From Nitrospiraceae bacterium (GTDB taxonomy: Bacteria > Nitrospirota > Nitrospiria > Nitrospirales > Nitrospiraceae): a stretch of 64,000 nt of DNA. The DNA is taken from NCBI GenBank assembly GCA_035623075.1, contig DASPUC010000003.1, positions 62,001 to 126,000 of the forward strand, read 5' to 3'. This document shows positions 2,442 through 30,788 of the stretch, one piece after another. A program made the translations under genes and the position numbers. Position 1 is the stretch's first letter. Every line of letters begins with the position of its first letter. Below the pieces are notes generated by a model that was not told the origin of the DNA, did not search any database, and saw nothing but the letters and a program-made list of their open reading frames with translations.

Positions 2442-3659
2442 ATGGGGCCCTTCAACGACCGGCGGCCGGCCACACTCTCGTCCCTTGTGCTACGAACCCT
2501 CGAACGACTCAGCCAAGGAGATGGGGCGAGAAGCGACAGAATCGCGCAGACAGTCGCCGAACTGTCGCGGCTGTTCACGAAAGAACGGGCTGAGCTGAGT
2601 CGCTCATACCTCGACGATCCGAAGAGTGCCGCAGCCTATTGCGTCTATTTTCTCCCCGTCAATCTCTCAAAGATCCAAGTGCTTCTTGATGAACTCACGC
2701 TCGAGTCCCTGGCGGGAGAAGAAGAGTCGAGCATGAAAGTCCTCGATCTGGGGTCCGGCCCTGGGACGGGCGGATTGGCCGTTCTTGATTGGCTTCATCA
2801 CCAGCATCCTGAGTTGGCCCGGCGTCTCTCGGTCATGGCCGTCGACTCATCCAGTGGAGCAGTGCGGCTTGCGCAGAATTTCTGGAATGCCTACTGTCAG
2901 GAAGCCGGGACCGTCGGTGCCACTCTCTATCCATACGAAGGGAACCTTGAGCGGGCGCAGAAAGAGTCCTGGCGCCACCAGGCGAAAGAACGAAGCCCGT
3001 TCGATCTCATCATCATGGCAAACTGTCTGAATGAACTCTTCGCCGCAGCGCTCGATCCAATTGTCTTGCGTACACAACTGGTAGCAGACCTCCTCCCGCT
3101 TCTCAAGCCCCACGGCACGATCATGCTCATGGAGCCGGCATTGCGGCAGACGTCGCGAGCCCTCCATCAGGTTCGTGACCGATTGCTCCAAGAGCAGCGC
3201 TGCACGATTTACAGCCCCTGTCTCCATGAGCGAAATTGCCCGGCGCTGGTGAATCCGGATGATTGGTGCCATGAAGAACGGCCATGGGACACACCGGCCC
3301 ATATTCTCGAGATCGATCGAGAGGTGGGCTTCATCAAGGATGCCCTGAAGTTTTCGTATCTGTTGCTTCGTAAGGACGGGCGCACGATTGTGCAGAGGCA
3401 ACCGGATGTCTATCGGGTGGTGAGTGAGTTGCGGGAATTCAAAGGGGAGAAGCGGGCCTGGCTGTGCAACGAGCTGGGGCGGCAGGACGTTGGACGACTC
3501 GACCGAAAGGCATCGCCCGAGAATGCGGCAGTGGATGACTGGCATCGAGGTGCAATCGTACGGATAAGCGACATAGTCAGAAAGACCAAGGGCGATCGTC
3601 TGGGAACAGTCGGGAGAATTTCAGATTCTGCGTCTGTTGAGATCATCCGTCCTGTCTAA
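2442..3659 (+). CDS. Rsm22-like SAM-dependent methyltransferase
   Basis: This 405-residue protein has a class I methyltransferase motif I (VLDLGSGPGTGG, about residue 100) and later the NCLNELF segment typical of the Rsm22 family. A C-terminal cysteine cluster near residues 250-270 (C-x5-C-x5-C-x8-C, ending in DDWCHEERPW) matches the family's iron-sulfur-like signature. In mitochondria and related bacteria Rsm22 proteins act on or assemble with the small ribosomal subunit; a ribosome role here is inferred from the family. No clear Shine-Dalgarno sequence precedes ATG 2442, so a somewhat later start is possible. It stands alone, divergent from the small gene upstream. Confidence 0.8.
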   Translation: MGPFNDRRPATLSSLVLRTLERLSQGDGARSDRIAQTVAELSRLFTKERAELSRSYLDDPKSAAAYCVYFLPVNLSKIQVLLDELTLESLAGEEESSMKVLDLGSGPGTGGLAVLDWLHHQHPELARRLSVMAVDSSSGAVRLAQNFWNAYCQEAGTVGATLYPYEGNLERAQKESWRHQAKERSPFDLIIMANCLNELFAAALDPIVLRTQLVADLLPLLKPHGTIMLMEPALRQTSRALHQVRDRLLQEQRCTIYSPCLHERNCPALVNPDDWCHEERPWDTPAHILEIDREVGFIKDALKFSYLLLRKDGRTIVQRQPDVYRVVSELREFKGEKRAWLCNELGRQDVGRLDRKASPENAAVDDWHRGAIVRISDIVRKTKGDRLGTVGRISDSASVEIIRPV

Positions 3660-3693
3660 ACTTTTCCAACCAATACAGAGGAAGTGTACGCCC

Positions 3694-3873
3694 TCTCGCT
3701 CCGGCGCCTCTCGCGCCACCCCTTCCACGGCGCTCTGCAGTGGAAGCCTTCTGGAATTCCTTCAGCTGCAATCGTTCGATCGCAGTGCTTCTGTCAGTTC
3801 CAGCTTTCCTTCTGCAGACGCCGGGTGGGGACCCCACCGCTCCCGCGCAAGTCGCTCGATGCCGCACCCTTCC
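3694..3873 (+). repeat. Long-hairpin repeat, copy 1
   Basis: This stretch is homologous to the reverse complement of 5186-5365. Shared blocks include GTGGAA-CCTTCTGGAATTCC around 3740-3760 and CAGTTCCAG-TTTCCTTCT around 3795-3812. It folds as nested stems: CCACCC 3716-3721 with 3823-3828, GGCG 3729-3732 with CGCC 3819-3822, CTGCAG 3735-3740 with 3812-3817, CTGGAA 3751-3756 with 3798-3803, and an apical hairpin 3766-3785. Several of these stems have different sequences in copy 2 yet still pair, so the structure appears to be conserved. No protein is supported here. Confidence 0.8.
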
Positions 3874-3887
3874 CTATAAAGTATGGA

Positions 3888-3920
3888 AACGGGACCGATC
3901 GCTCTTAGACCGGTCCCGTT
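3888..3920 (+). terminator. Hairpin, possible weak terminator
   Basis: Ten perfectly paired bases (3888-3897 with 3911-3920) enclose a 13-base loop. No T run follows, so it may stop transcription only weakly or may be part of the repeat-rich spacer after the Rsm22-like gene. Confidence 0.4.
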
Positions 3921-3977
3921 GCTTGGACTAGTGCCCGAATATCGCTATAGCACGTTGGAGCTGTGTAGTGGATAGCA

Positions 3978-4006
3978 TTGACAAGTGATTGAGCGCAAGT
4001 AAGAAT
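3978..4006 (+). promoter_or_regulatory. Candidate sigma70 promoter for the Ntn-hydrolase-like gene
   Basis: TTGACA at 3978-3983 is followed 17 bases later by AAGAAT at 4001-4006 (or 16 bases later by TAAGAA at 4000). The start codon at 4093 lies about 85 bases downstream. The rest of the 3660-4092 spacer holds only the structured repeat and the hairpin. Confidence 0.5.
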
Positions 4007-4092
4007 CGCCTCCTAGCTCACGGTCTGTGTTCGTGTACTATGCCAAGCAGTTTGCCGAATAGTTGGACCTTCCGTTTAGGGAGTCGGGTAAT

Positions 4093-4986
4093 ATGACTCA
4101 GATTCTCGCTGCACTTACGCACGAATACGTCCTTGTCGCATCTGACCGACAACTCACCTTCACCAGTGGTCTGCACAAAGGCGAGATTGCCGACGACAAC
4201 ACCTGCAAGCTCGTGTCCCTATGTGGCGTTTGGGGGATAGCTTATACGGGGTTCTCCCAACTTCAAGGGGTACCTACGCATGAGTGGATTGCCGTGCGTC
4301 TTGCTGAAAACGGGTGCCGAAGCCCATACGTAGCTGTTCAGATCCTTGCTGATTCGGCCCCATCAGCATTGAGAGCAGCCCCCTTTCTCCTGGAACTCAC
4401 GTTCTTAATCGCGGGATGGACGAGGTTGGCTGATCATAAGACACTTCAGCCTCATTTTTTGCTAGTCTCAAACATGCACGAACGAGACGGGAAATTACGG
4501 CCTAGTCCAGGGTCCGACTTCCATTTTTTCGAGCGAAGATTGAAGGCAGAGGAGGTCTACGTTAGCCGTGTCATCGGCCAGCCACTTCCAAATGGCCGCG
4601 GAAAATATCTTGACCGATTTCTACGGCGACTGCTGAAACATAAAATTGGACCGAAGCCTGCGATGCAAGCTTTTGCAAACGAAATCATCAATACTTCTCG
4701 GTCTAAGGGGACTGTTGGTCAGAAAATCCTTGCCTTCTCGATTCCGAAGGCGGCGGCTGAACGAACATACCAGACAGGGAACTATGTGCTGTTGGCCATG
4801 GAGCCGGATCGGTGTAACATAGCGTTTTGTTATTTCGACCCGGTCTACTCTCAATTGCGTCAGTATGGACCAACTTCCACGTGTGGGGAGTCGGCTGTGA
4901 CAGATATAGTGACTGAGAATGATCCTGCCCGTGACTACCAAAGTTCAAGCGTCAGGCTTCTGCACCTGCCGAAACCGAAGTCCTAA
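4093..4986 (+). CDS. Proteasome/HslV-like Ntn-hydrolase candidate
   Basis: The 297-residue protein begins Met-Thr-Gln-Ile. If the Met is removed, Thr becomes residue 1 and Asp falls exactly at position 17 (VASDRQ), as in proteasome beta subunits and HslV. A Lys in DNTCKLV sits near position 38, close to the catalytic Lys33, and is followed by a hydrophobic strand ending in a GIAYTGFS segment like the family's AG-G turn. A Ser/Gly-rich SRSKGTVG segment near residue 210 may match the family's SGG loop. ATG 4093 has AGGGAG nine bases upstream; an in-frame TTG at 4063 is less likely. It is about 1.5 times the usual length of HslV. No ATPase partner is adjacent. Fold and activity are inferred from motifs only; it could be an inactive relative. 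Confidence 0.6.
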   Translation: MTQILAALTHEYVLVASDRQLTFTSGLHKGEIADDNTCKLVSLCGVWGIAYTGFSQLQGVPTHEWIAVRLAENGCRSPYVAVQILADSAPSALRAAPFLLELTFLIAGWTRLADHKTLQPHFLLVSNMHERDGKLRPSPGSDFHFFERRLKAEEVYVSRVIGQPLPNGRGKYLDRFLRRLLKHKIGPKPAMQAFANEIINTSRSKGTVGQKILAFSIPKAAAERTYQTGNYVLLAMEPDRCNIAFCYFDPVYSQLRQYGPTSTCGESAVTDIVTENDPARDYQSSSVRLLHLPKPKS

Positions 4987-5030
4987 CAATCGCGAAACAG
5001 GAAAGGTCCTGGGACTATCTCGAACTCTTG

Positions 5031-5063
5031 AGGCTGCTCAAAAAGACCTTCCAGCAAGGCCAC
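5031..5063 (+). repeat. Fragment of a dispersed intergenic repeat
   Basis: The sequence AGGCTGCTCAAAAAG followed by a CCAGCAAGGCC block resembles one end of the 36061-36225 element (AGGATGCTGAAAATG). I read it as a truncated or degenerate copy of that family. Confidence 0.4.
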
Positions 5064-5185
5064 ATTTCTTGATAAGGCGACGGGTCTAGGAGCGACTCGT
5101 CGCCGTTTCATTTTTTAGAGCAGCGCTGGCCGGTTCTGCGTCGCGAATCGCGGAGGCGGCCGATTTGTTTTGCATGAGGATCGGT

Positions 5186-5365
5186 AAGTAGGTGCCGACC
5201 GCCGACTTCACCGGAGGCGCGGGGACCCAATGAGATTTCAGCGAGAAGGAAATCTGGAACTGACCACAGCACCATGGTCGCAGACCATGGCTACGGGAAT
5301 TCCAGAAGGTTTCCACTCGCTGGAACCCAGAAGGGTCGCGCCGGGAGGTGTGGAGGCGGGAGGCG
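5186..5365 (-). repeat. Long-hairpin repeat, copy 2
   Basis: This is the inverted copy of 3694-3873. Its stems are GGCGCG 5216-5221 with 5337-5342, GACCC 5224-5228 with 5333-5337, CAGCGAG 5239-5245 with 5316-5322, CTGGAA/TTCCAG 5254-5259 with 5300-5305, and a perfect 8-base apical stem 5272-5279 with 5283-5290 around loop GCA. The apical and CAGCGAG stems differ in sequence from copy 1 but remain paired. A 94-codon frame crosses it on the minus strand but follows the repeat and is not supported as a gene. Together with the 5031-5063 fragment this accounts for most of the 4987-5405 spacer. Confidence 0.8.
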
Positions 5366-5405
5366 CCCACTTGCTGAATGATTTAAAAAATCTTAAGAGA
5401 GTGGG

Positions 5406-5588
5406 CTAGTCTGCTTCAGGCTCTGAACTTCCATGCTGGTGCGAGACCCGATCCTCGTCGAACAACTCTTCCATCTCCTCCGCGATCATATCCCGATCGT
5501 TCGGGACAGAGATGAGCGGGATTTCTTTGCGCGCCTTCGGCTGATTGTCCGCCTCAGGGGGCTGCGGTTGTTTTGGCTTCTCACTCAT
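5406..5588 (-). CDS. Small acidic, proline-rich hypothetical protein, 60 residues
   Basis: I do not recognise the family. Translation from ATG 5588 gives a Lys/Pro/Gln-rich N-terminus and an acidic second half (EEMEELFDEDR), likely largely disordered and cytosolic. An in-frame GTG at 5603 is an alternative start; AAGGTG upstream fits ATG 5588 better but is not strong. It lies downstream of the zinc-ribbon gene on the same strand, 38 bases after it, so the two may be co-transcribed. Confidence 0.5.
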   Translation of the reverse strand: MSEKPKQPQPPEADNQPKARKEIPLISVPNDRDMIAEEMEELFDEDRVSHQHGSSEPEAD

Positions 5589-5626
5589 ATCCGAAGTATA
5601 CACCTTTCTAGAGAAGGAAAGGTGAG

Positions 5627-5986
5627 CTATTCGAAGGCTTCCAGCGAGGACTTCTCAGGGAAGGTCCTCTTGCAGTTCGTGCAGGTGACGAAGTAGATGG
5701 CTTCCCGTACTGACATCGTGATGCGAAAATCCAGACTAACTCCCCGTTGATTGCAGGCCGTGCAGGAAATCTCCTTGAGTCGATAGGGCACGTCCGGCTG
5801 AGTGCGGAGATAGAATTCCATATCGGTGTAAACCGGAAAGCTGTAGAAACATTTCTTGCAGACGCCCCGCCATTCCCCGTCGGGGTTCATGAATCGCTGG
5901 TCGATCCCAAAGCTGCTGCCTTTACAGATGGCACACTGGACCGTGGCAAGCCTGGATTCGACGGTCTCGACAGTTGGGTTTGGCAT
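5627..5986 (-). CDS. Double zinc-ribbon hypothetical protein
   Basis: From ATG 5986 the product is 119 residues. It has two four-cysteine pairs: CAIC with CKKC, then CTAC with CTNC, each separated by about 24-28 residues, which suggests two zinc ribbons and a nucleic-acid or protein binding role. No enzyme motif, signal peptide or membrane segment is visible. The start is uncertain: an in-frame TTG at 6055 would add 23 residues and neither start has a clear Shine-Dalgarno sequence. The small acidic protein follows it on the same strand. I do not recognise the specific family. Confidence 0.6.
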   Translation of the reverse strand: MPNPTVETVESRLATVQCAICKGSSFGIDQRFMNPDGEWRGVCKKCFYSFPVYTDMEFYLRTQPDVPYRLKEISCTACNQRGVSLDFRITMSVREAIYFVTCTNCKRTFPEKSSLEAFE

Positions 5987-30489: not shown

Positions 30490-30788
30490 GTTATATCCCA
30501 AGTCCAGAAATCTTTAGGCCATTCCGAAGCCATCGATTCGTGTGAAGCGCGTCATACGGACTGAACTCCTGACCTTGAAACACAGCGAATTGACACACGT
30601 AGCACCGGGAAAGGGTGGCAAGTGTGCAAGAAGCTATTGGGAAAAGTTCCGACGAAATTTTGTCATGAAAGCAAGCGGAAACTGACTGAGTCCCTGAAGG
30701 AGTTTCCGAGGGCTTCCGCCCGGGAAAAGTCGAGAGAGTCAATATGATTTGAAGGGTCTGGAAGCGGAAGGGGGATGCAGCTGTGCCT

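Follow-up and report, generated by a model that had tools for sequence, protein, structure and literature searches.

Two long hairpins, A and B, lie in opposite orientation on either side of a single gene in the window (the whole 64,000-nt stretch of Nitrospiraceae DNA that was analysed). They seem to be copies of a non-coding mobile DNA element, about 200 bp long, which functions as a single folded strand and of which facing pairs border cargo slots; confidence in this reading is about even. The earlier note on this DNA had observed the inverted pair and its compensating stem changes. The mobile, multi-copy family and its position at the borders of accessory genes go beyond that observation.

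Both copies are present and mutually inverted, as had been described. Their inverted-repeat matches comprise 29 nt at 86% and 22 nt at 95% identity. The z-scores of folding against dinucleotide shuffles were -4.1 for A and -5.4 for B as RNA, and -3.1 and -5.2, respectively, as DNA. The stems quoted before could be located, namely CCATGGTC/GACCATGG and CAGCGAG/CTCGCTG in B and the middle stem CTGCAG/CTGCAG in A; the apical stem of A also pairs, except for one A-C mismatch. The limits given for the two copies were roughly right, and alignment with orthologous copies places the ends slightly further out (Table 1). A is downstream of the stop codon of the methyltransferase-like gene (3659) and B is downstream of that of the small conserved gene, each in the same orientation as its gene. 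A weak short-apex relative of the hairpin (CCCTCGGAAACTCCTTCAGGGACTCAGTCAGTTTCCGC; 28.8 bits), probably decayed, is found at 30634-30750 on the minus strand of the window.

Table 1. Features of the slot between the methyltransferase-like gene (MT) and the small conserved gene; positions are those of the window.
Feature	Position	Strand	Remarks
MT, core neighbour	2442-3659	+	in 136/147 relatives
Hairpin element A, whole palindrome	about 3679-3874	+	ends aligned to the orthologous copy in L043, GGAAGCATGC...GCACCTTCC
A model core	3708-3840	+	covariance-model hit, 98.9 bits
A conserved inner core	3734-3818, approximate	+	GTGGAAGCCTTCTGGAATTCC, apical stem, GTCAGTTCCAGCTTTCC; invariant columns of 15 Nitrospiraceae and Patescibacteria copies
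Probable terminator after A	3888-3920	+	inverted repeat AACGGGACCGATC...GACCGGTCCCGTT
Promoter into the enclosed gene	3978-4006	+	TTGACA-17-AAGAAT; sole promoter-like hit of the stretch
Enclosed accessory gene, 297 aa	4093-4986	+	slot holds other genes in relatives
Intrinsic terminator, cargo side of B	5076-5104	+	GGCGACG.GTC...GCGACTCGTCGCC, conserved in >10 relatives
Hairpin element B, whole palindrome	about 5181-5376	-	ends aligned to five orthologous copies, CAGCAAGTGG...CCACTTGCTG
B model core	5216-5347	-	covariance-model hit, 141.4 bits
B conserved inner core	5238-5319, approximate	-	motif as in the A core
Small conserved gene (65 aa), core neighbour	5406-5603	-	convergent with MT
Cys-rich gene, 5' side of the small gene	5627-5986	-	in 135/147 relatives

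The genome that contains the window carries five copies of the hairpin, from which a first covariance model was built. Of the three copies beyond A and B, one follows purQ, one follows a WD40 gene and one is located at the end of a contig. Each matches the model at E < 1e-29; the A/B pair is therefore far above chance. The covariance-model search that the earlier note had proposed detected the hairpin in 89 of the 147 genomes that were sampled from the same family and in 19 of 22 genera, often with more than ten copies, the per-genome numbers from the large searches being lower bounds. A deeper search of eight genomes gave 4 to 21 copies per genome. When the search was extended to the class, all of the 87 matching genomes were from the same family. 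A pattern scan of named genomes returned Nitrospira and Nitrospirae contigs and also several Patescibacteria, and with a second model, which combined Nitrospiraceae and Patescibacteria copies, 12 of 280 genomes of one Patescibacteria class matched, the largest number per genome being at least five. Most of the inspected Patescibacteria copies fold as a long hairpin of like kind. One of them (L126:3-800, minus strand) overlaps an open frame resembling DprA, possibly as an in-frame insertion comparable to the Rickettsia palindromic elements. The pattern hits in Bacteroidales (L086) and in another bacterium (L068) are without paired flanks and were dismissed as chance; a Pyrinomonadaceae hit (L131) is close to the Nitrospira copies and may belong to a misbinned contig. 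No pattern match was obtained in viral contigs or plasmids, and a phage or plasmid carrier was thus rejected.

The conserved core consists of GGAA-N-CCTTCNGRAATTCC followed by GTCAGTTYCNGYTTTCC, the two being separated by an apical stem, the sequence of which is free, or by a short loop. The N-N' pair of this core varies among copies (T-A, C-G, G-C or A-T), and short-apex variants occur in the family. Nitrospiraceae copies have in addition the outer motif pair ACCCTT and GGGTCCC, beyond which lie locus-specific closing arms. The whole element, mostly 191-204 nt long, is discrete, intergenic and multi-copy, and has no coding capacity.

The pairing of the hairpin stems is under selection. In the proposed covariation test, carried out on 115 copies, both sides had changed with pairing kept in 588 cells, compared with a mean of 143 in shuffles; none of 500 shuffles reached 588, and slid structures gave at most 108. 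Changes on both sides were observed at 34 of the 47 pairs. As a control for kinship, 52 disjoint nearest-neighbour pairs of copies, which are phylogenetically independent, were compared: pairing survived 77 double changes and was lost in 25, whereas controls with a slid partner column gave 6-8 kept and 23-38 broken. Pairing is thus conserved in further copies and the covariation is significant, which supports the earlier claim that the compensating changes reflect selection on a folded nucleic acid. Orthologous hairpins are also well conserved in place. Their identity was 91% at the WD40 locus (69% for the upstream coding sequence), 87% at the small-gene locus (70% for coding sequence), 86% at the MT locus (65%) and 93% between L153 and L069 (70%). 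One WD40 comparison (L005/L047) is an exception, the hairpins being only 62% identical. The DNA directly beyond the orthologous hairpins on the downstream side showed about 50% identity, that is, it had been replaced.

Gene calls from a simple codon-usage script place a co-oriented gene nearest upstream of 87 of 116 copies, and its stop codon precedes the model core by a median of 60 nt. The upstream genes, recognised from sequence as purQ, ftsZ, secA, truA, ychF, sucC and ispG, are typical core genes. The downstream genes are mostly singletons and follow no orientation rule (65 same, 50 opposite). One copy lies between the stop codon of ftsZ and the start of yfiH. A role in transcription termination was rejected: a strict terminator was found within 150 nt behind only 2 of 129 copies.

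The sense-oriented position directly behind stop codons, the copy inside the ftsZ-yfiH pair, the strong conservation in place and the conserved internal loops would fit an RNA element transcribed as part of a 3'UTR or between cistrons, or a small RNA originating from such an element, with a stabilising or regulatory effect on the mRNA of the upstream gene. A role of this kind has been proposed for ERIC and YPAL transcripts; in that case, mobility would be secondary. This explanation is possible but doubtful. On the sense strand, G-T (G-U in RNA) was not favoured over A-C mismatches in the independent pairs (53 versus 78, p 0.036, a weak difference), and the 29 of 116 copies without a co-oriented upstream gene pair almost equally well. 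Predicted stability was higher for the antisense strand in 112 of 120 copies under DNA parameters and in 104 of 120 under RNA parameters; these counts are not independent, since the strand asymmetry is shared via the common core. In addition, many orthologous genes have no hairpin. A sense 3'UTR RNA is therefore disfavoured, and the evidence leans toward a folded DNA strand or an antisense RNA. A structured non-coding RNA from the antisense strand, with purine-rich internal loops, would be in agreement with the better antisense fold under RNA parameters and with the A-C excess, which is G-U on that strand. Nevertheless, such an RNA seems unlikely, because the orientation of the downstream genes is inconsistent and no match at the gathering score was obtained in Rfam 15.

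Judged from sequence comparison, the hairpin element is evidently mobile: G041, G111 and G123 carry copies at unrelated loci that share 92-97% identity, and the likeness of these copies ends at the palindrome ends. Mobility seems to proceed without target duplications, as the ends of 70 copies showed no repeat of 4 bp or longer. The core evolves independently of the outer shell. The correlation between core and outer identity over all pairs was 0.09, and among 95 pairs with cores at least 93% alike, the outer parts were less than 70% alike in 18, yet still paired. Moreover, in five genomes (G036, G041, G073, G084 and G099) a second hairpin type replaces the core inside the outer arms of A. This nesting, together with the independence of core and outer shell, suggests that cores might move into existing hairpins or be swapped within them.

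An inert, ordinary MITE, with arms that stay alike through template switching at quasi-palindromes and not through selection, is improbable. It would suit the many unrelated palindromes that fill intergenic gaps in Nitrospiraceae and the strong differences between the stems of copies with identical cores. However, the compensating changes are scattered (7 adjacent, 6.5 expected) and are mostly double transitions (57 of 77), which points to stepwise compensation, not to correction of one arm by template switching. Conserved bulges and mismatches were never corrected, and the hairpins are usually better conserved than coding DNA. Homogenisation between loci is likewise disfavoured, because the arms stay locus-specific. 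With regard to a MITE of a known IS family, the hairpin termini are locus-specific, and one ISL3-like element, in G012 (see below), carries a copy.

Several other repeats were observed in these genomes. A second long hairpin family with the motif CTTGCTCGCAGAACGCG gave about 34 hits in 26 loci (L145, L198, L199, L200 and L204 among others); its conserved motifs, GGCCAGGTGCCCTTCTTGCTCGCAGAACGCG ... CGATGCGCGCAGTAAAGGGCAGCC, are asymmetric, and it is often in tandem. This is the hairpin type that occupies the middle of the outer arms of A in the five genomes named above. In G012 (L057, L058) a hairpin copy is contained within an element of about 0.55 kb with ISL3-like terminal repeats, GGCTCTTC...GTGTGGGTGA, which occurs twice at 98-99% identity and is exceptional for the family. 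A clean pre-insertion site for a single hairpin was not found: the relatives at the ftsZ-yfiH junction carry other palindromes. In five loci (L275, L277, L280, L282, L290) this gap holds wholly different palindromes in each genus, such as repeated TTGACGATTGATTCATCG or TTTGAGTTGTGAG, which looks as though this site tolerates, or gives rise to, any palindrome.

Throughout the family, MT and the small gene lie next to each other in convergent orientation. Their stop codons are 4-9 nt apart in the empty slots of seven relatives (G009, G067, G070, G074, G090, G131, G132), and filled slots carry inserts of up to 7.3 kb. The window and G078, which represent different genera, have both A and B, and the genes enclosed are unrelated; only one of the two hairpins is present in six genomes (G018, G053, G084, G102, G116, G122). 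Nearly all of the called cargo genes at this junction are read in the direction of MT. The probable terminator after A is conserved at the MT side in G078, G053 and others, and the promoter at the equivalent slot in G075, G073 and G062, as seen in a four-genome alignment. The gene enclosed in the window had been labelled Ntn-hydrolase-like. This label could not be confirmed, since no match was found in Pfam, PADLOC, NCBIfam or PDB; a single-sequence AlphaFold model of its product had a pLDDT of 33 and was unusable. Before the terminator on the cargo side of B, the segment 5036-5070 (TGCTCAAAAAGACCTTCCAGCAAGGCC) matches a repeat in the slots of G036 and G004, apparently another Nitrospira repeat family. 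Behind the hairpin cargo of G078:C135 (L050, near 4900), there is a stretch that resembles a true attC (GGTTTAACG...GCGTTGTTAGGC).

Neighbouring hairpin copies less than 7 kb apart are mostly in the order plus and then minus: they face each other around one or a few genes. Among the proteins adjacent to or enclosed by hairpins are an Mrr type IV nuclease, UzuA, a type IIG restriction-modification enzyme, an HNH nuclease, a Fic protein and trypsin-like proteins with weak similarity to LmuA. PADLOC models matched 222 times across about 90 downstream genes versus 9 times across 73 upstream genes; these are counts of models, and overlap among restriction-modification models inflates them. The downstream side of the hairpins is enriched in restriction and other defence genes. 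Hairpins and cargo exchange are linked by association. At the MT/small-gene junction, an intact hairpin of the family is missing from most occupied slots, so that the cargo turnover could be ordinary hotspot behaviour.

A search of the literature, in which few subscription journals were covered, gave nothing relevant on such repeats in Nitrospira or Patescibacteria, and as far as could be found this family of mobile palindromes of about 200 bases had not been described before. It is filed as a variant of the bacterial palindromic mobile repeats and assigned to none of the named families. Among the described kinds it comes closest to YPAL/RU-2, likened here by description only, and next to ERIC and RUP. 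YPAL/RU-2 are the Yersinia palindromic sequences of about 168 bp in Yersinia and Erwinia (PMC2229807). Like the present family, they are long non-coding palindromic intergenic repeats, mobile without a known enzyme, not A+T rich and without TA termini; YPAL is co-expressed with upstream genes (PMC2229807). However, YPAL has target duplications of 3-26 bp (PMC2229807), and the present family has none; the latter is further distinguished by covarying stems of free sequence, a core shared across phyla, and opposing pairs around accessory genes. ERIC/IRU (127 bp), RUP and the NEMIS MITEs are also imperfect intergenic palindromes with proposed action in mRNA. In contrast to the present family, ERIC and RUP carry TA at their termini and produce target duplications (PMC2229807), and unlike in ERIC and other MITEs, sequence conservation in the present family is confined to the core.

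The REP/BIME elements with RAYT (TnpA_REP) resemble the hairpins as palindromes at gene ends and in inverted pairs, but they are 20-40 nt long with GTAG or CGTC tags (PMC3733652), whereas the hairpins are about 200 nt long and have no shared end tag. The Y1 tyrosine transposase (PF01797, E 1e-5) was absent from the genome of the window (G000) and from six hairpin-rich genomes (G004, G010, G018, G023, G028, G038), and a REP/RAYT system was therefore rejected. Like integron attC sites, the hairpins have a folded strand and variable stems, lie behind genes and border exchangeable genes; they occur as single copies or facing pairs, not as arrays. The integron integrase (TIGR02249) was absent from G000 and from hairpin-rich G004, G018 and G023, and scored over the cut-off in 15 of 147 genomes without tracking the presence of hairpins. 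A disguised attC-type site, at which a tyrosine recombinase inserts cassettes, would agree with the geometry (a hairpin behind a gene, a better antisense fold and a promoter-headed cargo slot) but is very improbable, because this integrase is missing and the attC boxes RYYYAAC and GTTRRRY are absent from the conserved core on inspection. Neither the search for Y1 transposases nor that for integron integrases yielded an enzyme that could move the hairpins. Taken together, the lack of target duplications as in YPAL and of the REP/RAYT and integron enzymes keeps the family out of the named ones.

In the favoured reading, of a mobile element working as a folded single strand, the conserved core would be carried by stems whose sequence is free and whose pairing is selected. 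A trans-acting recombinase or transposase might recognise the folded strand, probably the antisense strand, as this folds better, and might insert the element beside or into hairpin DNA at gene ends. Facing pairs inserted in this way could become stable borders of slots for accessory genes, and exchange in the slots might be performed by the same enzyme or by homologous recombination between elements. A bolder form of this reading, considered rather unlikely, is that the hairpins represent a new class of single-stranded DNA recombination site, attC-like in function but unrelated: a mobile core would enter hairpin tips, and facing pairs would frame promoter-headed slots for single defence genes, exchanged in at least two phyla via a novel recombinase.

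The family is a clean example of strong covariation in mobile DNA, and warns against discovery of RNAs from covariation only. It might also be a genetic link between Nitrospirota and Patescibacteria. If the favoured reading is true, accessory genes of defence type in nitrite and ammonia oxidisers, an ecologically central group, would sit in slots marked by folded DNA, and this mark would provide a handle for new defence genes and for the mobilising enzyme.
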